Source: Bordetella parapertussis | Lineage (GTDB): Bacteria; Pseudomonadota; Gammaproteobacteria; Burkholderiales; SG8-41 | Direction of reading: 5' to 3' | Length of the DNA: 64,000 nt | Assembly: GCA_945861275.1 (NCBI GenBank) | Contig: CAMATZ010000020.1 | Location: 1 to 64,000, forward strand | In this document: positions 14,314 to 48,371 of the stretch, one piece after another | How the letters are laid out: the number at the start of each line of letters is the position of its first letter | Numbering within the stretch: position 1 is the first letter of the stretch | Made by a program: the position numbers and the translations under genes | The notes under the pieces: generated by a model | Told to the model about the DNA's origin: nothing | The model's input: only the letters and a program-made list of their open reading frames with translations | Database searches by the model: none

Positions 14314-14500
14314 GTTGGGGAGAGCGCAGCGAGGATGGCCGAAGGCGGGAAGTGCCATGTTCACTGTCGCAATTCGCGACGCGCGCGCCGTGGCGTCTCT
14401 CCCTGCAAGCTTGGCTAGGGCCCCGGTTAGGAGGGTGGTGGGGCGAATGTTGGAGACATGATTAATGGTATTTTAAGAATTTCCAACTCCCTATTCCATC

Positions 14501-15493
14501 GTGACCTATGCTGCGTGGGCGCCGTTAATTGCTTTTGCCGTTACGCTGGTTGTCGTGGAAAGCTGTACTCGCGGTCGGCTTGCTCAAATTGCACTCGACC
14601 GCCCAAATGAACGGTCGTTGCATGCAACGCCGACTCCAAGAACAGGCGGATTAGGTCTTCACGCAGGCTTTTTAGTGGCCTTGCCCGTCGCTGGATTTCC
14701 TGTTCCGGCCATCGTTATTTTTTCGTTGTTGGGATTGATCGCGGTATCCGCTTGGGACGACGCGCGCGGCCTATCGGTCTTTGCCAGATTTACCGCGCAA
14801 TTGCTTGCCGCTGGTGCCGTGTCAGGATTTTTTCTGCTAACGGATTTTGGGCCTGCCGTAGTGATTGCCTGCGCGATTGGTATTGTCTGGATGACCAACC
14901 TTTATAATTTCATGGATGGTTCGGACGGCCTGGCGGGTGGTATGGCCCTGTTTGGTTTCGCTTTTTATGGCGTCGCGGCATATGTCGCAGGCAACACGGC
15001 GTTTGCTTTACTCAATTTCAGCATCGCGTCCGCCGCCGCTGCGTTTTTGGTATTCAATTTCCCTCCGGCAAGAATATTCATGGGGGATGCGGGCTCTGCC
15101 CCACTGGGATTTCTGGCTGCCTGTCTCGGTTTGTTCGGATGGTTGCAGAACTATTGGGCTTGGTGGTTCCCGCTATTGGTATTTTCACCGTTCATAGTCG
15201 ACGCCAGCGTAACGCTATTGCGACGTTGTTACCGTCGCGAGAAGATATGGCAAGCGCACCGTGATCACTACTACCAGCGCCTCGTGCGCCTGGGCTGGGG
15301 CCATCGCCGAACAGCGCTTGTCGAATACGCGTTGATGTTTGCGTGCGGTATGGCTGCGCTAGCAGGGTTAAAATGGGCATATTCCGGGCAGGTAGCGCTA
15401 CTTCTAACGACGGTAGTCATCTATTCCCTACTCATCTTCTCTGCAGAATTCGCGTGGCGAAAATTCCGGGCAGCACAGGATCATGAAGCATAA
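14501..15493 (+). CDS. Initiating glycosyl-1-phosphate transferase, WecA/WbpL/MraY family
   Basis: A polytopic membrane enzyme that moves a sugar-1-phosphate (usually HexNAc-1-P) from UDP to undecaprenyl phosphate, the first step of repeat-unit assembly. Family motifs are all present: the aspartate pair WDDARGLS (85-92), NFMDGSDGLAGG (136-147), FMGDAGSAPLGF near 195, and the cytoplasmic HRDHYYQRL loop near 255. About ten membrane segments and 330 residues fit WbpL. The start is a GTG at 14501 without a visible Shine-Dalgarno sequence. The stop overlaps the next gene by 11 bp, implying translational coupling with the dehydratase that likely makes its substrate. Confidence 0.9.
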   Translation: MTYAAWAPLIAFAVTLVVVESCTRGRLAQIALDRPNERSLHATPTPRTGGLGLHAGFLVALPVAGFPVPAIVIFSLLGLIAVSAWDDARGLSVFARFTAQLLAAGAVSGFFLLTDFGPAVVIACAIGIVWMTNLYNFMDGSDGLAGGMALFGFAFYGVAAYVAGNTAFALLNFSIASAAAAFLVFNFPPARIFMGDAGSAPLGFLAACLGLFGWLQNYWAWWFPLLVFSPFIVDASVTLLRRCYRREKIWQAHRDHYYQRLVRLGWGHRRTALVEYALMFACGMAALAGLKWAYSGQVALLLTTVVIYSLLIFSAEFAWRKFRAAQDHEA

Positions 15494-17303
15494 CTGGCGT
15501 ACCGCACTCGCATTGGTGCATGATGTCACCGCCTGCGCGGTGGTTTGGCTCGTCGCCTACTGGCTAAAGTTTAATTTCGAAGTCCCGCTATTTTTTCAGG
15601 AAACCGCGTTTCAATCCATGCTGTGGGTGGCTGCCATACACACGCCCATTTTTATCGCATTCAATTTGTATCACGGCATCTGGCGGTTCGCGAGCCTGCA
15701 CGATCTACGGCGCATCATCGGCGCGGTGTTGGTCGCGGCACTGGTGACCCCGGCAGTGATGCTGATGCTTAAGTTGGCGCCCCCGCCCCCGCGTGCTGTT
15801 TTTATCATAGCGCCCGTTTTTCTGATCATGGTGATGGGCGGCAGTCGCTTTGCGTACCGTGCATGGAAGGAACGCAGTCTCAATGGGTTCCCGCACAAGG
15901 AACAGAAGCCGGTATTAATAGTCGGCGCCGAAGACACCGCGGTTAGTCTGATCAAGGAACTCGTGCGCAGCGCACAATGGCGTGTGGTCGGTGTGCTCGG
16001 GCAGGATCGCTCCAGGTATGGGCGTGAACTTCACGGTATAAAAATTCTTGGCGCCTTCGCCGAAATCGGAGCGCAAGCACAAGCCTGTGGAGCAAAGCAC
16101 GCAATAATTGCGATGCCCGAAGCACCTCACAACATGCGCCGCGAAGCGATTGAATTGGCCCGTGCAGCAGGGCTGCAGGTGCTGACCGTGCCATCGTTCG
16201 ACGATCTTATGAGCGGCAGGGTTACCGTGTCGCAAATTCGCAGCGTCGAATTGGATGATCTGCTGGGACGCGATCCTGTGGTGCTCGACACGGCGGGGTT
16301 AAGAAATTGGATCAGTAACAACGTGGTTCTGGTCAGTGGTGCGGGTGGGTCCATCGGCTCGGAATTGTGCCGGCAAATTGCGCGTTACCAGCCTCGCGAA
16401 TTAATATTGTTCGAACTGACCGAATTTGCACTGTACCGAGTCGAACAGGAATTTTCCGCGCAATACCCTGATTTGAAAATCACCTGCGCCATCGGTGATG
16501 TGAAAAATTCCGCACGCGTGCGTGAACTGCTCGAAGCTCATCGTCCGGCGGTGGTGTTTCATGCGGCGGCATACAAGCACGTGCCGCTTATGGAAACGGG
16601 AAACGCCTGGGAAGCTGTGGTCAACAATGTGTCAGGCACGCTGGTTTTGGCGAAAGCCGCCATTGCCTGCGGCGTGGGCAAATTTGTGTTTATCTCGACT
16701 GACAAAGCGGTTAATCCAACCAACGTCATGGGGGCCAGCAAACGGCTGGCGGAGATGGTGTGCCAATCGCTGCAGCAACCCACCGGCACACGTTTCGTGA
16801 TGGTGCGATTCGGCAACGTATTGGGGTCTGCCGGTAGCGTGATCCCAAAGTTCCGCGAGCAAATTGCGGACGGCGGCCCGATTACCGTCACGCACCCCGA
16901 CATTACGCGCTATTTCATGTCCATCCCGGAAGCTGTGCAGCTGGTACTGCAAGCCGGGCTCATGGGGCAAGGCGGTGAAATATATGTCCTCGATATGGGC
17001 CAGCCCGTGCGTATCATCGATCTTGCGCGCGACCTGATCCGCTTGTCAGGCTACACCGAAAACGAGATCCGCATCGTATACACTGGTCTGCGGCCCGGCG
17101 AAAAGCTCTATGAAGAACCTCTCGCTGCGGGCGAAAATATTTTGCCTACGCCGCACCCGAAGCTGCATGTGGCACAGGCGCGGCGCGAAACGCCCGAGTG
17201 GCTTGCAGAGCTGGCGATCTGGCTGGAGTCAAACACCGAAACAAACTATGTGGCGGTAAAAGCCGAACTCGCCCGGCGCGTGCCGGAGTACATCCCGCAA
17301 TGA
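15483..17303 (+). CDS. UDP-GlcNAc 4,6-dehydratase of the WbpM/CapD membrane type (606 aa)
   Basis: The N-terminal 120 residues form about four membrane helices. A CoA-binding-like Rossmann segment follows (VLIVGAEDTAVSLIKEL), then the SDR domain with VSGAGGSIGSELCRQI. The active site reads ISTDKAVNPTNVMGASKR, i.e. Met where short SDRs have Tyr, the S-M-K arrangement known from WbpM. Such enzymes convert UDP-GlcNAc to the 4-keto-6-deoxy sugar used for QuiNAc, FucNAc or bacillosamine. It overlaps the WbpL-like gene, so the first sugar of the glycan is probably a 6-deoxy-HexNAc. Length is normal for the long family. Confidence 0.9.
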   Translation: MKHNWRTALALVHDVTACAVVWLVAYWLKFNFEVPLFFQETAFQSMLWVAAIHTPIFIAFNLYHGIWRFASLHDLRRIIGAVLVAALVTPAVMLMLKLAPPPPRAVFIIAPVFLIMVMGGSRFAYRAWKERSLNGFPHKEQKPVLIVGAEDTAVSLIKELVRSAQWRVVGVLGQDRSRYGRELHGIKILGAFAEIGAQAQACGAKHAIIAMPEAPHNMRREAIELARAAGLQVLTVPSFDDLMSGRVTVSQIRSVELDDLLGRDPVVLDTAGLRNWISNNVVLVSGAGGSIGSELCRQIARYQPRELILFELTEFALYRVEQEFSAQYPDLKITCAIGDVKNSARVRELLEAHRPAVVFHAAAYKHVPLMETGNAWEAVVNNVSGTLVLAKAAIACGVGKFVFISTDKAVNPTNVMGASKRLAEMVCQSLQQPTGTRFVMVRFGNVLGSAGSVIPKFREQIADGGPITVTHPDITRYFMSIPEAVQLVLQAGLMGQGGEIYVLDMGQPVRIIDLARDLIRLSGYTENEIRIVYTGLRPGEKLYEEPLAAGENILPTPHPKLHVAQARRETPEWLAELAIWLESNTETNYVAVKAELARRVPEYIPQ

Positions 17304-17369
17304 CAGAATGACGTTGGTGTGATTCAAACTGATGTCTAAGAACGGGAGTTTATATAGATCAAAGAAACT

Positions 17370-17408
17370 CCTTCTGCTCCGCTTCAAGTGTTCCCTTGCC
17401 CTTCAGGG
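17370..17408 (-). repeat. Dispersed repeat, copy 2 (inverted copy of 14277-14313)
   Basis: Read on the minus strand it gives GGGCAAGGGAACACTTG followed by GCGGAGCAGAAGG, matching the copy upstream of the initiating transferase. Confidence 0.75.
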
Positions 17409-17440
17409 CTAATCCATGCACACAACCTTGAGTGTGAGAG

Positions 17441-17502
17441 CATGTAGCCCGGAAGAAGGCCATGGCTTTTCATGGCCGTATTCCGGGGAAGTGTGGGTGG
17501 AT
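17441..17502 (+). repeat. REP-like direct repeat A flanking vapBC
   Basis: The first 41 bases (starting CATGTAGCCCGGAAGAAGG) are identical to those at 18340. The repeat contains the hairpin GGCCATG-gctttt-CATGGCC and an outer CCGGAA/TTCCGG pair. Its tail GTGTGGGTGGAT matches GTGCGGGTGGAT in the other copy. Confidence 0.85.
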
Positions 17503-17540
17503 TTAAGTAAGTGCCATTCCACACTGACCCTATTTACGTG

Positions 17541-17975
17541 TTAAGGCTGCTTCGTTCCGTCTAAGGCCAGCGCGGCTTGATCGTAGGTGTAGGTACCGCC
17601 GTAGTGTTCACCCCGCCACTGTGCCGTGATCTTTGCTTTGTTCACTACCAACGCATCGGCCAGATCTGCAGTCCGTGCTCCGTCAGAAGTCCTCACCGGC
17701 GGAGCTTCAATGTAGTCGTTCACCGCCGACCAGACCGCTCGACGACTCTCGAACACAATATTGGGTTCTTCCAACAGTCCCATGACCATCGCCACTAAGT
17801 CGTCCTTGCTCGCCTTATACCGCTTTCCTTTGAGCGTCCAAATGGCTTCGGCCAGCACGACATCAGGAATCAGGACGTTTTCCTTCCGGTCAAATAACCG
17901 GCGCGCCCTTTCCGCCTGGTCGACGTCATCGTCGAGCAGCCGTCGTAGCAGGACGTTCGTATCGACCGCAATCAC
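17541..17975 (-). CDS. vapC: PIN-domain toxin, VapC family
   Basis: A 144-residue PIN ribonuclease. The metal-binding acids are visible: D5 in MIAVDTNVLLR, E43 in VLAEAIWTL, and the late aspartates in TADLADALVV. The protein should cleave RNA, in VapC families often tRNA, when freed from its antitoxin. It overlaps the antitoxin gene by four bases (ATGA-type), the normal toxin-second order. The module lies between two REP-like repeats inside the polysaccharide locus and is likely an acquired cassette. Confidence 0.88.
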   Translation of the reverse strand: MIAVDTNVLLRRLLDDDVDQAERARRLFDRKENVLIPDVVLAEAIWTLKGKRYKASKDDLVAMVMGLLEEPNIVFESRRAVWSAVNDYIEAPPVRTSDGARTADLADALVVNKAKITAQWRGEHYGGTYTYDQAALALDGTKQP

Positions 17976-18226
17976 GCCGCACGTCGCTTTGTCTCAACCT
18001 TGCTGAGTTTGCTCACAAGTACGTCGTGCAGCGAATCCTCATCCGAAAACCGCCGGTCCACTTTCAGATGCTTGAGCACGCCGGCACTGCTGCCCTTCAT
18101 CTTCTTCAGAATGGTGATCCGGCCTTTGTGCTCCAATATCTCCAGCACATCGCCTGGCGAGACCTGAAGACGGTCGCAAAGCGCTTTGGGCAAGGTTATT
18201 TGCCGTTTTGGGCTGAGAGTGGGCAT
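17972..18226 (-). CDS. vapB: AbrB/MazE-type antitoxin (VapB)
   Basis: The 84-residue protein begins with a swapped-hairpin AbrB DNA-binding domain (MPTLSPKRQITLPKALCDRLQVSPGDVLEI type pattern). Its C-terminal half is charged and would wrap the VapC active site. It probably represses its own promoter; upstream, 18227-18260 is AT-rich and holds TTTACA-like boxes reading leftwards, but no clear operator was resolved. Translationally coupled to the toxin. Confidence 0.86.
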   Translation of the reverse strand: MPTLSPKRQITLPKALCDRLQVSPGDVLEILEHKGRITILKKMKGSSAGVLKHLKVDRRFSDEDSLHDVLVSKLSKVETKRRAA

Positions 18227-39632: not shown

Positions 39633-40373
39633 CTACAAATACCGCGTCGGCCAGTTAATCGTGCGCCACATGTGCGCGGACGGGCTTTGATCAAAGCCCA
39701 GGCCTTCTGCCGGCTGGCGGAAGTGGCGGCCCACGATATCGGTGAACTCTTCCAGCTCCACATGCACATTCGGGTCGAATGAGTAGAGGTCGTTAACCGT
39801 CAGCAAGCGCGCCGTCATGTACCACTTGTGGTTGCGCGCATATTGATATGCAGTTTCGAGATAAGGCTCCGGTTTGTAGTTCGCGCCAAACAGGCGGATA
39901 TACGATTCGGGATATTTATAGCCCACTGATTCATCGGCGTAGAAGCGCAGCACCTGATGGTAGCGAATGGCGAAAGCCACTTCCTCATCGACATACGGCT
40001 CGAGCAGTTGAGCGGCCCAATACCCGTGATCAGCTCGGATGAAAGCGCTGGCGGCCATGTCGTGCACCAGACAGGCGAGCACAATTTTTTCACTGGCGCC
40101 GTTTTTTTGCGCCAGCCGTGCGCTTTGCAGCATGTGCGTGGCGGGCCCAAAGCGGTACTTGAAAAAATCGAATAGCGTAGGTTTGTCGGGCATGCGCGCC
40201 AGACGCGGATCATGATGCATCAGGTACAGCCTGCCGTTGGCATCCTGCCGTGGCAAGGGATCGCGCGGGTCGACTTCGCCCGACGTGTAGATCGCGGATT
40301 TCACGATCACCAAACGATCCATCTCGTCGGCGAGTGCGTGGTCGGCAGCTTCGGCTTTTTGGAGGGTTAGCAT
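39633..40373 (-). CDS. HD-domain putative phosphohydrolase
   Basis: Starting at ATG 40373 the 246-residue protein shows an HD-type metal site: His80 in GPATHMLQSA, His104-Asp105 in ACLVHDMAAS, and a likely distal aspartate in LLTVNDLYSFD. The spacing fits the HD superfamily, whose members hydrolyse phosphate esters or, in MIOX-like relatives, oxidise inositol. The sequence DPRLARMPDKPTLFDFFKYRFGP is typical of a small uncharacterised subgroup. No cofactor or substrate can be named. An upstream in-frame extension to 40418 lacks family features. Confidence 0.75.
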   Translation of the reverse strand: MLTLQKAEAADHALADEMDRLVIVKSAIYTSGEVDPRDPLPRQDANGRLYLMHHDPRLARMPDKPTLFDFFKYRFGPATHMLQSARLAQKNGASEKIVLACLVHDMAASAFIRADHGYWAAQLLEPYVDEEVAFAIRYHQVLRFYADESVGYKYPESYIRLFGANYKPEPYLETAYQYARNHKWYMTARLLTVNDLYSFDPNVHVELEEFTDIVGRHFRQPAEGLGFDQSPSAHMWRTINWPTRYL

Positions 40374-40562
40374 GGCGAAGATAATCCTCTCGCGCGTGCG
40401 CACTGTCAAGCGGGCCACAGTGAGTGCTCGCGGAAGTGCCTGCCGGCACGCGCACAGCCCTCAGGGCGGATGATCTAACCGTCTGATTCAATGAATATAT
40501 TTCGGGCCGGATGCAGGAACAGCGGTCATCGTCCGTAGCCTCGGGTTGCCGTTGCGAGCACG

Positions 40563-40905: not shown

Positions 40906-41355
40906 ATGGCAAGGCTTAATATCAATGGCAGGACACACGACGTCGACGTCGAACCCAGCATGCCGCTGTTGTGGGCGATCCGCGAACACGTCGGTCTCAC
41001 CGGCACCAAGTATGGCTGCGGCGTGGCGGTGTGCGGCTCTTGTACCGTGCATATCGACGGCGCGCCGGTGCGTTCGTGCGTGATGCCGGTGAGTGCGGCG
41101 GAAGGCAAAAAAATCACCACCATCGAGGGCCTTGCAGTTAAAGGCGTGCTGACCAAAGTGCAAAAAGCCTGGCTGGATCACGAAGTGCCGCAATGCGGTT
41201 ACTGCCAGTCGGGCATGATCATGGCGGTGACGGCACTGTTGAACAGCAAGCCCAAGCCGACCGATGCCGACATCGACAGCGCGATCACCAACATCTGCCG
41301 CTGCGGCACCTTCCAACAAGTGCGCGAAGCGATACACGCCGCCGCCAAAGCCTGA
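40906..41355 (+). CDS. [2Fe-2S] subunit of a molybdenum hydroxylase (IorA-like)
   Basis: This 149-residue protein has the N-terminal plant-type cluster (C38, C43, C46, C58; YGCGVAVCGSCTVHIDG) and the C-terminal four-helix cluster motif CGYCQSG plus CRCG. Both [2Fe-2S] centres of xanthine-oxidase-type small subunits are therefore present. It passes electrons from the molybdopterin subunit encoded 10 bp downstream. AGGAGG precedes the start. Closest in type to isoquinoline 1-oxidoreductase alpha subunits. Confidence 0.9.
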   Translation: MARLNINGRTHDVDVEPSMPLLWAIREHVGLTGTKYGCGVAVCGSCTVHIDGAPVRSCVMPVSAAEGKKITTIEGLAVKGVLTKVQKAWLDHEVPQCGYCQSGMIMAVTALLNSKPKPTDADIDSAITNICRCGTFQQVREAIHAAAKA

Positions 41356-41365
41356 GGAGAACGCC

Positions 41366-43555
41366 ATGAATATTATCGAAATGCCTAAAGTCAGCCGCCG
41401 TTCGTTTGTGGTGGGTGCAGCCGCAGCCGGCACAGGTCTCGCGTTGGGGCTGAAGCTGCCGCCGTTTGGCCCTGGTGTCGTGCGCGCGCAGGATGGTTCG
41501 CCCGAAGTGACGCACTGGGTGGTGATTCGCCCCGACGACACGGTGGTGATCCGCATCGCGCGTTCGGAAATGGGGCAGGGCACGCTCACCGGTCTCGCGC
41601 AGATGGTGGCCGAAGAACTCGAATGCGATTGGTCGAAAATCACCACCGAGTATCCGACGCCGGGTCAGAGCGTTGCGCGCAAACGCGCATGGGGTGATTT
41701 CTCCACCGGCGGCAGCCGCGGTATCCGCGAATCGCATCAGTATGTGCGCCAGGGCGGCGCCACCGCGCGCGTGATGTTGGTTCAAGCAGCCGCCGACGCG
41801 TGGAAAGTGCCCGCCGCCGAATGCAGCGTAGCCAACAGCGTAATCACGCACAATCCTTCGGGCCGCAAGGTGACGTACGGCAAAGTCGCCGAAGCCGCTG
41901 CGCGCATCACACCGCCGAAAGACGTGCCGTTGAAGGATCCGAAAGACTGGAAAATCATCGGCAGGAACGTGAAGCGCCTCGACACCATGGACAAGCTCAC
42001 CGGCAAACAAGTCTACGGTTTCGACTTGAAGCTGCCGGGTATGCTCAATGCCGCGATCATCGAGTGCCCGGTGTTCGGTGGCAAAGTCAGGAGCTTTGAC
42101 GCAGCCAAGGTTGCAAGCCGCAAGGGCGTGAAAAAAGTAGTGCAGGTCGGCGACACCGCGGTTGCCGTGATCGCCGATACCTGGTGGCAGGCCAAGACCG
42201 CGCTCGACGCGCTGCCTATCGTGTGGGACGAAGGCGCAAATGCCAATGTGTCGAGCGCCTCCATCGCAGAGATTCTGAAAGCCGGCCTTGATGCCGATCA
42301 GGCATTCGTTGGCAACGATGCGGGCAACGCCAAAGAAGCGCTTGCCGGTGCGGCCAAAAAAATCGAGGCCGTGTACGCCTATCCATTCCAGAACCATGCG
42401 TGCATGGAGCCGATGAACGCCACTGCGCGTTACACCGCGGACAAGTGCGAGGTATGGGTGCCCACGCAAAACGGCGAAGCCGCGTTCGCGGCCACGCTGG
42501 CGGCGTCGGGTCTGCCCGCCGACAAGTGCGAAGTTTACAAACTGCATCTTGGCGGCGGCTTCGGGCGGCGCGGCGCGTTTCATGATTACGTGACGCAGGC
42601 TGTACGTATCGCGAAGGAAATGCCCGGCGTGCCGGTGAAGTTGCTGTGGTCGCGCGAAGAAGACATGCGCCAAGGCCGGTTCCATCCGGTAACACAGTGC
42701 AAGCTGGTGGGCGGGTTTGATGCCAACAACAATCTCACCGGCCTGCACATGCGCATTTCGGGGCAATCGATACTTTCTGCGGTGCGCCCGGAAGCGTTGC
42801 AAAAGGGCATGGACCCCGCAACCTTTCAAGGCGTGGCGCGGGGCGGTGAATTCGAGTTCGGCTATAAGGGCATACCCAATCTGCTGATCGATCACGCCAT
42901 ACGCAATCCGCATGTGCCGCCGGGATTCTGGCGTGGTGTGAACATCAACCAGAACGCGATTTACATCGAGTGTTTCATGGATGAACTCGCGCATTCCGTG
43001 GGTCAGGATCCGCTCGAATTCCGGCGCAAGTTCATGGAGAAAAATCCCAAACATCTCGCGGTGCTCAACGCCGTGGCTGAACGCGCGGGGTGGGGCAAAC
43101 CCGCGGCGAAAGGTGTGTTCCGCGGCCTCGCGCAGATGAAAGCGTTCAACAGCTTCGTCGCGGCCTGCGCCGAGGTGTCCGTGAGCGGCGGCAACCAGGT
43201 GAAAATTCATCGCATCATTTGCGCAACCGATCCCGGCTACGCAGTCAATCCTGCGCAGATCGAGCGGCAGATCGCCGGCTCGTTTGTGTATGGATTGTCC
43301 GCGCTGTTCAATCAGGAATGCACGGTGAAGAACGGCCGCATCGTGGAGGAGAATTTCAACACCTACAACTGTATGAAAATCGCGCAGATGCCCAAGATCG
43401 AATCCATCGTCATGCCCTCCGGCGGATTCTGGGGCGGTGTGGGTGAGCCGACGATATGCGTGGCCGCGCCCGCTGTGCTGAATGCGATTTTCGCGGCGAC
43501 CGGCAAGCGCCTGCGCACGGTGCCGTTGAAGAATCACGGCATGACGATGGTGTAG
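41366..43555 (+). CDS. Molybdopterin-binding subunit of an IorB-like aldehyde/N-heterocycle oxidoreductase, Tat-exported
   Basis: The start at 41366 (Shine-Dalgarno GAGGAGA) gives 729 residues beginning with a twin-arginine signal SRRSFVVGAAAAGTGLALG. Family features include MGQGTLTGLAQMVAEELECDW, the molybdopterin motif LGGGFGRRGAFHDYV, and the C-terminal GVGEPTICVAAPAVLNAIF, whose Glu is the catalytic base. It hydroxylates a carbon next to nitrogen or an aldehyde carbon, in the periplasm if exported with IorA by hitch-hiking. No cytochrome or FAD subunit lies nearby, so the electron acceptor is unknown; the SoxYZ-like pair downstream is a candidate partner. Confidence 0.9.
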   Translation: MNIIEMPKVSRRSFVVGAAAAGTGLALGLKLPPFGPGVVRAQDGSPEVTHWVVIRPDDTVVIRIARSEMGQGTLTGLAQMVAEELECDWSKITTEYPTPGQSVARKRAWGDFSTGGSRGIRESHQYVRQGGATARVMLVQAAADAWKVPAAECSVANSVITHNPSGRKVTYGKVAEAAARITPPKDVPLKDPKDWKIIGRNVKRLDTMDKLTGKQVYGFDLKLPGMLNAAIIECPVFGGKVRSFDAAKVASRKGVKKVVQVGDTAVAVIADTWWQAKTALDALPIVWDEGANANVSSASIAEILKAGLDADQAFVGNDAGNAKEALAGAAKKIEAVYAYPFQNHACMEPMNATARYTADKCEVWVPTQNGEAAFAATLAASGLPADKCEVYKLHLGGGFGRRGAFHDYVTQAVRIAKEMPGVPVKLLWSREEDMRQGRFHPVTQCKLVGGFDANNNLTGLHMRISGQSILSAVRPEALQKGMDPATFQGVARGGEFEFGYKGIPNLLIDHAIRNPHVPPGFWRGVNINQNAIYIECFMDELAHSVGQDPLEFRRKFMEKNPKHLAVLNAVAERAGWGKPAAKGVFRGLAQMKAFNSFVAACAEVSVSGGNQVKIHRIICATDPGYAVNPAQIERQIAGSFVYGLSALFNQECTVKNGRIVEENFNTYNCMKIAQMPKIESIVMPSGGFWGGVGEPTICVAAPAVLNAIFAATGKRLRTVPLKNHGMTMV

Positions 43556-43626
43556 CAGATGTCAGCGGGACTTACCGCTGCGCCGAGGCGCATTGCGTTA
43601 AGTATTTGTTTTACAAAGAGAATTTT

Positions 43627-44103
43627 ATGAGACGTAGATCGCGCCGCCAGTTTCTGGCGGTGGCGGGTGGATGGGTCACGGCTGCGCTGTTGCCCCCGGC
43701 AGTGCGCGCGCAAATGACGCGCACGCCGCTCAACAACATGCCGGAAGTCATCCGCAAATTGGTGGGCACGAAAGCCATCAATCAAGGCCGCGTCAAACTC
43801 GGACTGCCGCCATTGGTGGAGAATGGTCACCTGGTGCCGCTGACCGTTAGCGTCGATAGCCCGATGACCGAAGCCGATCACGTCAAGGCCATCCACGTGT
43901 TTACCGAGCGCAATCCGCTGCCGCAGATGGCGAGCTTTCATCTGGGAGCGCGTGCCGGACGCGCGTACGTGGCGATACGCGTAAGGCTCGCAGACACGCA
44001 AAACGTCGTTGCCATCGCCGAAATGAGCGACGGCTCATTCTGGTCCGATAGCGCGCACTTGATTGTGACGCTGGCCGCGTGTCTTGAAGAACTGCCAGCC
44101 TGA
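43627..44103 (+). CDS. SoxY-like carrier protein with variant C-terminal AACLE arm
   Basis: The 158-residue protein starts with a twin-arginine signal (RRRSRRQFLAVAGGWVTAALL), followed by the SoxY immunoglobulin-like fold: GRVKLGLPPLVENGHLVPLTVSVDSPMTE type strands and HVKAIHVFTERNPLPQMASFHLG. Classical SoxY ends in a swinging GGCGG whose Cys carries sulfur intermediates. Here the end reads LAACLEELPA (Cys152), with six further residues. This matches the SoxY-related AACIE-arm group, recognised in annotations but without a known function. It sits between a molybdenum hydroxylase and SoxZ. Confidence 0.85.
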   Translation: MRRRSRRQFLAVAGGWVTAALLPPAVRAQMTRTPLNNMPEVIRKLVGTKAINQGRVKLGLPPLVENGHLVPLTVSVDSPMTEADHVKAIHVFTERNPLPQMASFHLGARAGRAYVAIRVRLADTQNVVAIAEMSDGSFWSDSAHLIVTLAACLEELPA

Positions 44104-44108
44104 TCGAT

Positions 44109-44429
44109 ATGGCCAACGTCCGCATCGATGTGCCGAAGACCGCCAAACGCGGCCAGATTATCGATATCAAAACGCTGGCCGCGCACCCGATGGAGACCGG
44201 CTTTCGCCGCACGCACCTGGGCGCGCCGATTCCACGCGACATCATCACCACGTTTGTGTGCTCGTATAACGGCGTTGAAGTGTTTCGCGCCGAGTTGCAT
44301 CCGTCGATTTCGGCAAATCCGTTCATACAGTTTTCCACGGTGGCCACCGAGAGCGGCACGCTGGAATTCAAATGGCGCGGCGATAACGGTTTCGTGGCGA
44401 CCGAAACGGCGCGCATCATTGTTAACTGA
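44109..44429 (+). CDS. SoxZ-like partner protein
   Basis: The 106-residue SoxZ fold is clear: VPKTAKRGQIIDIKTLAAHPMETG, the FVCSYNGVEVFRAELHPSISANPF strand pair, and FKWRGDNGF. SoxZ forms a heterodimer with SoxY; the gene follows SoxY by 5 bp, so the pair is co-expressed. No SoxA, B, C, D or X gene is in the window, so a thiosulfate-oxidising Sox system is not encoded here. SoxZ has no signal of its own and would be exported with the Tat-bearing SoxY-like protein. Confidence 0.9.
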   Translation: MANVRIDVPKTAKRGQIIDIKTLAAHPMETGFRRTHLGAPIPRDIITTFVCSYNGVEVFRAELHPSISANPFIQFSTVATESGTLEFKWRGDNGFVATETARIIVN

Positions 44430-44478
44430 AGTTTCACTTCAGCGATGACTTATAAAAGATCGTCACAAGGAATAGCAG

Positions 44479-45486
44479 ATGAAAATAGTTCTACCGGTAA
44501 TAACCCTCGTGTTGGCGTGTGCGGCGAGCATGCCGTGCATCACAATCGCCCAAACCGCTTCGACAGGCTCAGGACAGGGCTGGACGCCAACCAAAAACAT
44601 CGAACTGGTGGTGCCCAACCCGCCGGGCGGCAGCAACGACAAAACCGCGCGCACCATTGAGCGCATTCTGCTGGCGAGCAAGGCGTTGCCCGTATCGCTG
44701 ACGGTGGTCAACAAATCCGGCGGCGGCGGCAATATCGCCTACACCTATGTGCATCAACACCCGAACGATCCGCACATGCTGGTGGTTTCCGGCCCACCGA
44801 TCCTCACTAATCACATTACCGGGTCGGGCAAGCTGCATCACTCCGAATTCACGCCGATTGCCTCGCTGTTTGACGACTACACGGTATACGCGGTGAATCC
44901 GGGCGGACCGTTCGCTACGGGAAAAGATTTGGTTGTGCGCTTGCGCAAGGACCCCAAATCGGTGGCCACCGGATTCTCGCCGCTGCTCGGCAGCCACAAT
45001 CACATCGCCGCCGGCTTGTTGATGAAAGCCATCGGCGGCAGTCCGCGTGAATTGAAGGTGATTGCATTCAAAGGTTCCGCCGAAGCGATACCGAACCTGA
45101 TGGGCGGGCATATCGATCTGGTTACCACGGCGGCAGGCAATGTGGCGGGGCATGTCGCCTCCGGAAAATTGCGCGTGGTAGCAACCAGCGCGAAACAGCG
45201 CTTGACCGGAGTGCTGGCGAGCGTACCGACGTGGAAGGAACAAGGCGTCGATGTGGTGTTTGGCGCGTGGCGCGCCGTGCTCGCGCCCAAGGGGCTCACG
45301 CCCGCGCAAATTGCCTATTGGGAAAATCTGTTGCGCAAAGCCACCGAAGCGCCAGAGTGGAAAGACGATATGGAAAAAAACGTGTGGTCAAATGTTTTTC
45401 TTGGCAGCGCGGCATTTGCCAAAGAACTCGACAAGGACTACGCGGACATGAAGAGCGTGCTGGTGGATATCGGGCTGGCGAAGTAA
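44479..45486 (+). CDS. Bug/TctC-type periplasmic solute receptor, divergent subgroup (7 of 11)
   Basis: The 335-residue product has a signal peptide and a short low-complexity linker (TASTGSGQG) encoded by a dispersed repeat. The mature part reads IELVVPNPPGGSNDKTARTIER, VVNKSGGGGNIAYTYVHQHP and VIAFKGSAEAIPNLMGGHI. It lacks the usual NRPGAGG and DGYTL wording and resembles the receptor at 62072 more than the other nine. It follows SoxZ by 49 bp and is likely the last gene of the molybdoenzyme operon. Confidence 0.88.
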   Translation: MKIVLPVITLVLACAASMPCITIAQTASTGSGQGWTPTKNIELVVPNPPGGSNDKTARTIERILLASKALPVSLTVVNKSGGGGNIAYTYVHQHPNDPHMLVVSGPPILTNHITGSGKLHHSEFTPIASLFDDYTVYAVNPGGPFATGKDLVVRLRKDPKSVATGFSPLLGSHNHIAAGLLMKAIGGSPRELKVIAFKGSAEAIPNLMGGHIDLVTTAAGNVAGHVASGKLRVVATSAKQRLTGVLASVPTWKEQGVDVVFGAWRAVLAPKGLTPAQIAYWENLLRKATEAPEWKDDMEKNVWSNVFLGSAAFAKELDKDYADMKSVLVDIGLAK

Positions 45487-45642: not shown

Positions 45643-46521
45643 ATGAGCGCCGTAATGCAAGCACCCGCCCACACCATGAAAATCACTAAAGTCAAGCAAC
45701 ACATCGGCGCCATCGTCACCGGCATCGATTTGAGTGAGCCCGTCGACGCCGCGACGCAGAAAAAGCTGTATGACGCCGCAGTCGAAAACGTGGTGCTGGT
45801 GATCCGTGGACAAGCGCATCTCACGCCCGCGCAGTTACAGGCCGCCGCCGAAATGTTCGGCGAATTGATGGAAGACCAGAACCGGCGCTATCTGGTGGAC
45901 GGTTTTCCGCTGATCAGCGTGCTCGACAACTTCCACAAGGACAGCCAGGGCAATGCGGCCAAAGTCGGCACCAACTCCACCTGGCATACCGATCACACCA
46001 ATCAGGAACTGCCGCCGAAATTCACCATGCTGTACGCGGTGGCGGTGCCGGATAAAGGCGGCGCCACGTCGGTGTGCAACTCGCGCGCGGCCTACGAATC
46101 GCTGCCCGAGGACATGAAGCAAAAAATCACCGGCATGAAAACCGAGAACACGCTGATCAGCAGCGCGCGCTTCAAGATCGCCAATCCCGATGTTCTGCGC
46201 GCACAACTGGAATCCAAAAAGCCGCCGACGGTGCAGCCGCTGGTGCGCACGCATCCTGAAACCGGTAGCAAGGCGGTGTGGTTCCACAAAAGCAAGACCG
46301 AAAAGATCATCGGCATGACGCCCGAGGACACCCAGGAATTCCTGCAGGAAATTACCGACAAGATCACCCAACCGCAATTTTGCTATGCGCATGAGTATCA
46401 AAAAGGCGACCTGCTGATCATCGACGACCGTGCGTCGCTGCACAAGGCCGGGTTTGATTACGATCATAGCCAGCAACGCAGGCTGTATCGCATGCTGGTG
46501 CGCGGAGACCGGCCGTATTAA
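45643..46521 (+). CDS. TauD/TfdA-family Fe(II)/2-oxoglutarate dioxygenase
   Basis: The 292-residue enzyme has the iron triad: His115 and Asp117 in STWHTDHTNQ, and His267 in DDRASLHKAG. The 2-oxoglutarate-binding arginine lies in the following SQQRRLYRMLVRGD segment. The N-terminus GAIVTGIDLSEPVD is typical of the taurine/2,4-D dioxygenase group. Such enzymes hydroxylate a substrate carbon, often releasing sulfite or opening an ether. The substrate is unknown. A Shine-Dalgarno AAGGAGATAT precedes the ATG. It lies 6 bp before a serine-hydrolase gene. Confidence 0.9.
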   Translation: MSAVMQAPAHTMKITKVKQHIGAIVTGIDLSEPVDAATQKKLYDAAVENVVLVIRGQAHLTPAQLQAAAEMFGELMEDQNRRYLVDGFPLISVLDNFHKDSQGNAAKVGTNSTWHTDHTNQELPPKFTMLYAVAVPDKGGATSVCNSRAAYESLPEDMKQKITGMKTENTLISSARFKIANPDVLRAQLESKKPPTVQPLVRTHPETGSKAVWFHKSKTEKIIGMTPEDTQEFLQEITDKITQPQFCYAHEYQKGDLLIIDDRASLHKAGFDYDHSQQRRLYRMLVRGDRPY

Positions 46522-47783: not shown

Positions 47784-48371
47784 CTACGCCGACAGCGCCT
47801 CATCCAGAAAATCCAGCCGGTCCTGGCCCCAGTACAGTATGTCTTTGTAGATCCACGTCGGCGTGCCGAACACACCGCGCGCCTGGGCTTCCTGCTCGCC
47901 GGCTTTCCACGCCGCCATGATCTCCGGCGTGTCCTGCATCGCCAGAAGTTTCGCGCCGTCCATGCCCAGCGCGTTGGCGGTGGCGACACGCACGCCGGCG
48001 TCCTTCACGTCCTTTTCCTCGCTCCACAGCGCGTGCAGCAGGGCGTGGCTCAATGCCAGCGCGTTCCAGCCGAGCCGGTCGGCGGCGATCACCATGCGCG
48101 CACAAAATTCATTTTGCGTGGGGTAATGTTTGGGGCGCAGTATCAGCGGCATGTTCAGCCGCCTGCGCCAGCGCTCGAGTTCGACTTCGTGATAGCGCCG
48201 CCGCGCGTCGGGCCGGCTGAGCAGCGGTATGCCGCCGTTGGGCGGCACAATGCGTGTCGGGCGCACGATGACATCAAGATCGTGTTTAGCGATCAGCGCC
48301 TGAAACTTTGGCCAGCCGAGATACGCCCACGGTGAGGACAGTGAATGGAAATAATAGACGGTTTTTTTCAT
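47784..48371 (-). CDS. 2-hydroxychromene-2-carboxylate isomerase / DsbA-like GST-kappa family protein
   Basis: A 195-residue thioredoxin-fold protein with HSLSSPWAYLGW in place of a CxxC motif, and the late GVFGTPTWIYKDILYWGQDRLDFLDE segment of the HCCA-isomerase family. Serines near the N-terminal motif would bind the glutathione thiol. Such enzymes isomerise ring-opened aromatic intermediates in naphthalene-type degradation; the true substrate here is unknown. It is divergent from the Bug receptor at 48431 with only 59 bp between them. Confidence 0.87.
   Translation of the reverse strand: MKKTVYYFHSLSSPWAYLGWPKFQALIAKHDLDVIVRPTRIVPPNGGIPLLSRPDARRRYHEVELERWRRRLNMPLILRPKHYPTQNEFCARMVIAADRLGWNALALSHALLHALWSEEKDVKDAGVRVATANALGMDGAKLLAMQDTPEIMAAWKAGEQEAQARGVFGTPTWIYKDILYWGQDRLDFLDEALSA

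Follow-up and report, generated by a model that had tools for sequence, protein, structure and literature searches.

Why should genes for a molybdenum hydroxylase lie directly beside genes for a sulfur carrier of the Sox type? The question is raised by a locus at positions 40906–45486 of a 64,000-nucleotide stretch of DNA (positions 1 to 64,000 of contig CAMATZ010000020.1, assembly GCA_945861275.1, labelled Bordetella parapertussis; hereafter the window). Gene coordinates together with family and domain scans confirm what a preliminary description, made from the sequence alone, had claimed, namely that five genes on one strand combine an IorAB-type molybdoenzyme of the xanthine oxidase (XO) family with a SoxYZ-like carrier. 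The same description had placed the carrier protein SoxY, which ends in the arm AACLEELPA with a cysteine at position 152 (Cys152), in a named group of AACIE-arm proteins, and this assignment stood, as the window SoxY scores 187.5 bits against TIGR04487 ("SoxY-related AACIE arm protein"; cut-off 172) in NCBIfam, a family whose name carries no function. Here we report that the clade of SoxY proteins to which this one belongs and IorAB are inherited together, and suggest, tentatively, that the enzyme acts on a group bound to the carrier.

When 185 distinct SoxY-type proteins were placed in a tree, every SoxY encoded near IorAB fell within one clade (support 0.89). IorAB genes were found nearby for 135 of the 152 distinct SoxYs of this clade and for 0 of the 33 SoxY-type proteins outside it, three of whose loci have less than 2.7 kb of contig upstream. 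Those 33 comprise 20 proteins with GGC arms, four with a CGM arm and nine that are long and probably fused carriers (IorB at 0 of the 9 loci). Among the 17 unlinked SoxYs of the clade, nine are encoded where the contig stops at most 2.3 kb upstream and five are paralogues in the window's own genus. We estimate chance adjacency of a SoxY gene and an IorB-like gene at 1–2%, because there are about seven IorB-like genes in the 5.5 Mb of the window's own genome. The preliminary description had drawn the pairing from gene order and had proposed a survey of neighbourhoods; taken with the IorB clade described below, the survey indicates that the pairing is neither unique to this genome nor random. 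The link of the TIGR04487 family to IorAB was found in this analysis and is not in the NCBIfam output.

These counts come from two sets of loci, read with profiles made from the window genes. The order sample comprised 399 genomes of the window's own order, 205 of them with a match to TIGR04487 at E ≤ 0.001, other kinds of SoxY included. Its 81 loci were 79 from the listed matches, one from the window's own genome as a deliberate comparator (C27) and the window itself; weaker listed matches were omitted and some of these were fetched later, including two further linked members of the clade (L252 and L257). A scan with one genome per species gave 451 relatives, of which the 80 most similar to the window SoxY make up the collection set; further comparator loci were added later. 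Since the two sets share contigs we used counts of distinct sequences, and all counts ignore the relatedness of the genomes. Counted locus by locus, 67 of the 76 clade SoxYs from the order set are linked to IorAB, as are 72 of 80 from the collection and both of the late additions, where linked means an IorB gene within 4.5 kb on the same strand (64 of the 67 order loci) or, for the other three, on the opposite strand within 8 kb.

The enzyme side of the pair behaves in the same manner, with 122 of 123 distinct linked IorBs falling in one clade of the IorB tree (support 1.0). Eight IorBs of this clade are not encoded near SoxY; four are tandem second copies in such loci, three belong to lone IorABs and one is a divergent sister. 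Twelve positions, among them W690, five residues ahead of the catalytic Glu695, are kept in at least 93% of the 122 linked IorBs and in no more than 15% of a comparison group of 15 unlinked IorBs drawn from five genomes, which suggests that the linked enzymes may share one distinct type of substrate. Four loci (L141, L166, L173 and L194) carry two tandem iorAB pairs upstream of fccB-soxXYZA.

Loci of Alphaproteobacteria and Rokubacteria mostly hold a fuller operon, iorA-iorB-fccA-fccB-soxX-soxY-soxZ-soxA, without soxB or soxC, and the window locus is a reduced form of it. The commonest order in the collection set is iorA-iorB-fccB-soxX-soxY-soxZ-soxA, and 37 of 47 loci have a frame for a small CxxCH protein separating iorB from fccB. 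The fccB genes, which encode a flavocytochrome c sulfide dehydrogenase (FCSD) and had been omitted from the preliminary description, are present in 45 of the 63 collection loci whose contig extends over 2.7 kb upstream, and the 18 loci without fccB are all labelled Betaproteobacteria. In the operon of Reyranella massiliensis, family scans identified FCSD flavoprotein domains, SoxX, SoxY (TIGR04487), SoxZ and SoxA; the FCSD family is annotated as sulfide dehydrogenase. Across 136 iorB-linked loci, soxX and soxA are both present in 94 and both absent from 39, and FccB is present in 49. Among proteins of the collection set above the score threshold, five cysteine columns of FccB are kept in 48 or 49 of 49 sequences and the cysteine of an RRLRxC motif in 67 of 67 SoxA-like proteins, where it sits at what we take to be the place of the haem-ligating cysteine of SoxA. 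The absence of SoxAX, which the preliminary description had noted, is therefore only local, given the 94 loci with both genes and the finding of SoxA elsewhere in 26 of the 26 searched genomes with a copy of the module lacking local soxXA (in three of these a contig ends right after soxZ). In many of those genomes the other SoxA is encoded beside a GGC-arm SoxYZ.

A second form of the module has a short arm (e.g. SGCGL or TACGG) and accounts for 18 of the 152 clade members in the SoxY tree plus L101. Neither soxXA nor fccB was seen locally in this form, and in 18 of its 19 genomes the SoxA locus read carries its own GGC-arm SoxY. Since the short-arm form has no local soxXA, the smallest constant unit is IorAB plus SoxYZ. 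Different combinations occur at other loci. Four of them (L115, L253, L255 and L256) pair a CGM-arm SoxY with two fccB-like genes apiece, and the stretch read there contains neither IorAB nor SoxB. In five others (L225, L226, L227, L278 and L282) the SoxY of a soxX-Y-Z-A set has a GGCAG arm, and soxB is missing from the stretch that was fetched.

Is the module then a part of thiosulfate-oxidising Sox? With regard to INDEPENDENCE from thiosulfate Sox, SoxB above cut-off was found in 49 of the 68 order genomes with a fetched clade SoxY and not in 19 (one of them with a partial match); as weaker matches were omitted, these 68 are not all the carriers, and the other 331 genomes include at least two (those of L252 and L257). 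SoxB above cut-off is also missing in 6 of 12 named genomes. In R. massiliensis and two Reyranella bins the AACLE SoxY is the sole SoxY match and SoxB gives no match at all; in Telmatospirillum siberiense and two Methylobacterium species the AACLE SoxY is accompanied by one longer SoxY-type protein, again with no SoxB above cut-off; and six Bradyrhizobium genomes carry the AACLE SoxY alongside a GGCGG SoxY and SoxB. Within linked loci the SoxB profile matched once (L126), at 76 bits versus 764–1131 for fully read SoxB genes. SoxC-like frames were found in 0 of 80 collection loci (SoxD was not searched for) and in two of 81 order loci (L075 and L087), at 4.7 and 6.1 kb from unlinked paralogue SoxYs. 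Linked loci thus contain no real SoxB and no SoxC and are not canonical Sox clusters. Of 72 genomes searched for SoxC, four of which were comparators, 40 do have it above cut-off. SoxA above cut-off is present in 66 of the 68 genomes versus 129 of the 331 others, and in the two misses the contig ends just past soxZ (G210) or within it (G330). Where soxA is part of the operon, the linkage itself accounts for this, and the independent part of the evidence is the finding of SoxA in all 26 genomes mentioned above.

Compared with the canonical system (SoxXA, SoxYZ, SoxB and SoxCD), the module shares the carrier family, SoxZ and, in fuller operons, SoxXA, but differs in that its linked loci lack SoxB and SoxC, its arm is AACxE rather than GGCGG and an XO-family enzyme adjoins the carrier. 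A closer match, the one such cluster to which our literature searches led and likened here by description and not by sequence, is the second sox cluster of Starkeya novella (PMC3797975, 2013), which according to the part of that report available to us comprises soxX2Y2Z2A2F2 with Snov_1975/1976, that is, SoxX, SoxY, SoxZ, SoxA, a SoxF-like flavocytochrome c and an XO-family molybdenum enzyme without SoxB or SoxCD. The window, by contrast, has the molybdenum enzyme and SoxYZ but no soxX, soxA or soxF locally, SoxXA being encoded only on another contig. In the same part of the report, SoxAX and SoxYZ of that cluster were undetected, transcript levels were very low whether the substrate was glucose, methanol or thiosulfate, one flavocytochrome subunit was present at a low level except on glucose, and the authors suggest either that the cluster is functionally insignificant or that it plays a part in different conditions (PMC3797975). 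In Bradyrhizobium diazoefficiens, the available part of a second report states, soxY1 alone among the soxY genes is essential for thiosulfate oxidation (PMC5748708); soxY2 of that organism is probably of the AACxE type, judging from the six Bradyrhizobium genomes. The portions available of these two reports, the former on one organism, make no mention of the arm type or of a wider survey.

Two other systems share one half of the module. The quinoprotein dehydrogenase-associated carrier TIGR04557 is likewise a SoxYZ-type carrier beside a dehydrogenase of organic compounds (the ped cluster; PMC12997753, as excerpted), but it is a fused SoxYZ with a pyrroloquinoline quinone enzyme. Periplasmic IorAB-like dehydrogenases have the same subunit types as the window enzyme; they include PDB 8gy3 and the deoxyribose dehydrogenase of Pseudomonas simiae, which by the excerpts at hand oxidises an aldose in cell lysates and has a cytochrome c gene, with no SoxYZ mentioned there (PMC6365646). 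The linked IorBs differ from the unlinked IorB-like enzymes of the five genomes in the twelve positions above. The parts available of two further papers (PMC11582611 and PMC11237559) contain nothing on the module, and a link to mercaptosuccinate through the SoxYZ of Advenella was dropped, as nothing in the accessible part of the source (PMC5373536) ties that SoxYZ to the module.

We propose that the window holds the central genes of a periplasmic pathway for sulfur that runs in parallel with thiosulfate-oxidising Sox and in which IorAB oxidises the carbon of a SoxYZ-bound group, a reading that we hold to be plausible and somewhat short of probable. Building on the linkage, gene content and conservation described above, we infer its loading, substrate, chemistry and release as follows. 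SoxXA would attach a reduced sulfur compound, an organic thiol being the likeliest, to Cys152 of the carrier by oxidative coupling, and IorAB would oxidise carbon of the carrier-bound group. The product would leave without SoxB; an adduct hydroxylated next to the sulfur, for example, might split into a carbonyl compound and a carrier persulfide, which on chemical grounds would make the release an unaided one. FccAB would take up the released sulfide or sulfane sulfur, and in the window's own genome SoxXA would be supplied by a paralogous locus (C5). The most specific version, organosulfur desulfuration by a Sox-like system without SoxB or SoxCD in Proteobacteria and Rokubacteria, with a mixed disulfide formed by SoxXA, hydroxylation beside the sulfur by IorAB, collapse to a carbonyl and clearing of sulfide by FccAB, is possible and, to our minds, rather unlikely. 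Should the proposed mechanism hold, the molybdenum hydroxylases would gain tethered-substrate chemistry and the cycling of organic sulfur a new step.

Several points weigh against the proposal. XO-family enzymes act mostly on sp2 carbons and aldehydes, and hydroxylation beside sulfur would be unusual for the family. IorAB could act on a free substrate, the presence of FccB can be read as plain inorganic sulfide oxidation, and loading by SoxXA need not apply to the short-arm form, which lacks local soxXA and fccB. Clusters of neighbouring genes compared across loci included no organosulfur-specific gene conserved beside the module. Three SoxY loci of the clade (L057, L065 and L113) have no IorAB within 8 kb, one linked IorB (L105) falls outside the IorB clade, and the three lone IorABs inside that clade, one of them from the window's own genome (C26), have no SoxY.

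It is possible, though we think it unlikely, that IorAB oxidises a free organic substrate from which reduced sulfur is released, with SoxXA, SoxYZ and FccAB only trapping and detoxifying that sulfur and nothing acting on a carrier-bound group. Such a division of labour fits the relatives of IorB, whose names or demonstrated activities concern free aldehydes or aldoses, and it fits the sulfide dehydrogenase annotation of FCSD. However, the short-arm form keeps only IorAB and SoxYZ adjacent, which points to a direct partnership, and the cysteine-bearing arm has been kept, though altered, in this SoxY clade.

Carbon oxidation on the carrier must also be set against an inorganic route, in our judgement quite unlikely, in which SoxYZ is charged with sulfide or thiosulfate, by SoxXA or FccAB, and the sulfane dehydrogenase that stands in for SoxCD is IorAB. 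SoxCD is likewise a molybdenum enzyme, and the operon does contain SoxXA and FccAB; however, SoxB for the release of sulfate is missing, from whole genomes in some cases, and we know of no release step for an inorganic cycle without it. SoxC, moreover, co-exists in the 40 genomes noted above, and the IorB family oxidises carbon. The available parts of the two reports point the same way, with the Starkeya proteins undetected and their transcripts very low on thiosulfate as well (PMC3797975) and with the B. diazoefficiens soxY2, if it is of the AACxE kind, dispensable for thiosulfate oxidation (PMC5748708). A narrower idea, that the module replaces SoxCD in thiosulfate oxidation, was rated lower because SoxB and SoxC come and go independently of the module and whole genomes lack SoxB. 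Finally, SoxYZ might serve IorAB: charged with sulfur in the periplasm by FccAB and SoxXA, the carrier would restore the Mo=S ligand needed by XO-family enzymes. This would account for SoxYZ tracking IorAB in both forms of the module and for the drift of the arm away from GGCGG, but six other IorB-like genes of the window's genome lie on contigs without any SoxY, and sulfuration of XO-type enzymes is a cytoplasmic step that precedes export; we consider it very unlikely.

The pairing is genuine and occurs widely among bacteria, and it suggests that the module may be an overlooked pathway for handling sulfur compounds outside the inner membrane. TIGR04487, until now a named carrier family, gains a fixed partner enzyme and an operon, which makes its function testable. 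SoxY, SoxX or SoxA used alone as a marker of thiosulfate oxidation would count the module too, since 19 of the 68 order genomes and 6 of the 12 named genomes with the module have no SoxB above cut-off.

All five genes of the window locus lie on the plus strand, with gaps of 10, 71, 5 and 49 bp. The first, iorA (40906–41355), encodes the [2Fe-2S] subunit (Pfam Fer2 and Fer2_2), whose eight cysteines are kept in 64 of 64 relatives of the collection set above the score threshold. The second, iorB (41366–43555), encodes the molybdopterin-binding catalytic subunit (Pfam MoCoBD_1 and MoCoBD_2); its start is the first in-frame ATG past iorA, a longer frame runs from 41264 within iorA, and residue numbers here count 41363 as residue 1. 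The twin arginines R12-R13, the GQG loop and the GE of GVGEP (the Glu being residue 695) are invariant in 39 rows (alignment A3). The two [2Fe-2S] motifs, molybdenum cofactor domains and catalytic Glu mark the pair as an XO-family hydroxylase. As regards a possible identity with isoquinoline 1-oxidoreductase IorAB, a family scan gave no NCBIfam equivalog above its cut-off for either subunit, and the closest solved chain to IorB is that of an aldehyde dehydrogenase large subunit (8gy3_C, 247 bits).

The soxY gene (43627–44103) encodes a protein with twin arginines at R6-R7 that are invariant in 34 rows (alignment A4), and with a C-terminus, LAACLEELPA, in which A151, C152 (codon 44080–44082) and E154 are invariant in the 34 selected rows. 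It falls below the cut-off of true SoxY (TIGR04488; 113.4, cut-off 125), has no GGCGG arm and is distinct from TIGR04557 (66.5 bits, cut-off 140), SoxY and SoxZ being separate genes here. A profile from the window SoxY and six relatives matches solved SoxY chains; the predicted structure has a mean predicted local distance difference test score of 83, best at residues 41–140, with a low-confidence arm. Its partner subunit is encoded by soxZ (44109–44429; TIGR04490 at 86.7 bits, cut-off 76; Pfam SoxZ).

The window's genome encodes three SoxYs, in a canonical soxYZAXB set (C27), in the window and in a soxX-Y-Z-A set followed by a Bug gene (C5). The C5 SoxY belongs to the clade, scoring 159.9 against the TIGR04487 cut-off of 172. 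With SoxC above cut-off on a further contig (C34), the preliminary statement that no SoxAXBCD gene is present holds for the five-gene locus and fails for the genome. In the IorB tree the IorAB of C26 groups within relatives of the C5 type, and together the two contigs thus resemble another copy of the module that has been split. No FccB turned up next to the window locus, C5 or C26, the parts of the genome to which the search for it extended. Contig C68 carries, at 14355–18110 on the minus strand, a SoxC-like gene that stays under its cut-off (388.9 bits against 420) and, some 340 bp away, an IorB-like gene.

The fifth gene (44479–45486), for a Bug/TctC periplasmic receptor (Pfam TctC), is a doubtful part of the module, as few relatives share its place, and we regard it as weak evidence of membership. 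A dedicated solute receptor, as first suggested, was not borne out: there are at least 150 Bug-like matches in the genome, and a Bug gene lies within 1.5 kb on the same strand in only 8 of the 136 linked loci. In phmmer the C5 Bug was nearer to the window Bug than is another Bug of the window, and a special partnership was considered; it was dropped because many of those genome matches are closer to the window Bug than the C5 Bug is (36% identity). Substrate-specific conserved neighbours were also looked for and none turned up; outside the synteny of close relatives, the most frequent clusters were Bug receptors and an ATP-binding cassette transporter ATPase.

Four metagenome bins labelled Bordetella parapertussis (L116, L117, L118 and L130) are among the closest relatives of the window locus, and the label looks doubtful. 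Past the Bug gene the window has a TauD/TfdA-type dioxygenase gene (45643–46521), with a close homologue (654 bits) behind the module in L051, a locus of the same genus, and a gene for a DSBA-domain (thioredoxin-fold) protein (47784–48371, minus strand), which has homologues downstream of the module, again on the opposite strand, in five more loci of close relatives, two of these being the same contigs in both sets. Upstream of iorA, a gene at 39633–40418 on the minus strand has a weak likeness to phosphonate HD oxygenases (27.6 bits, cut-off 214.6), and a homologue of it was found near the module in L051.

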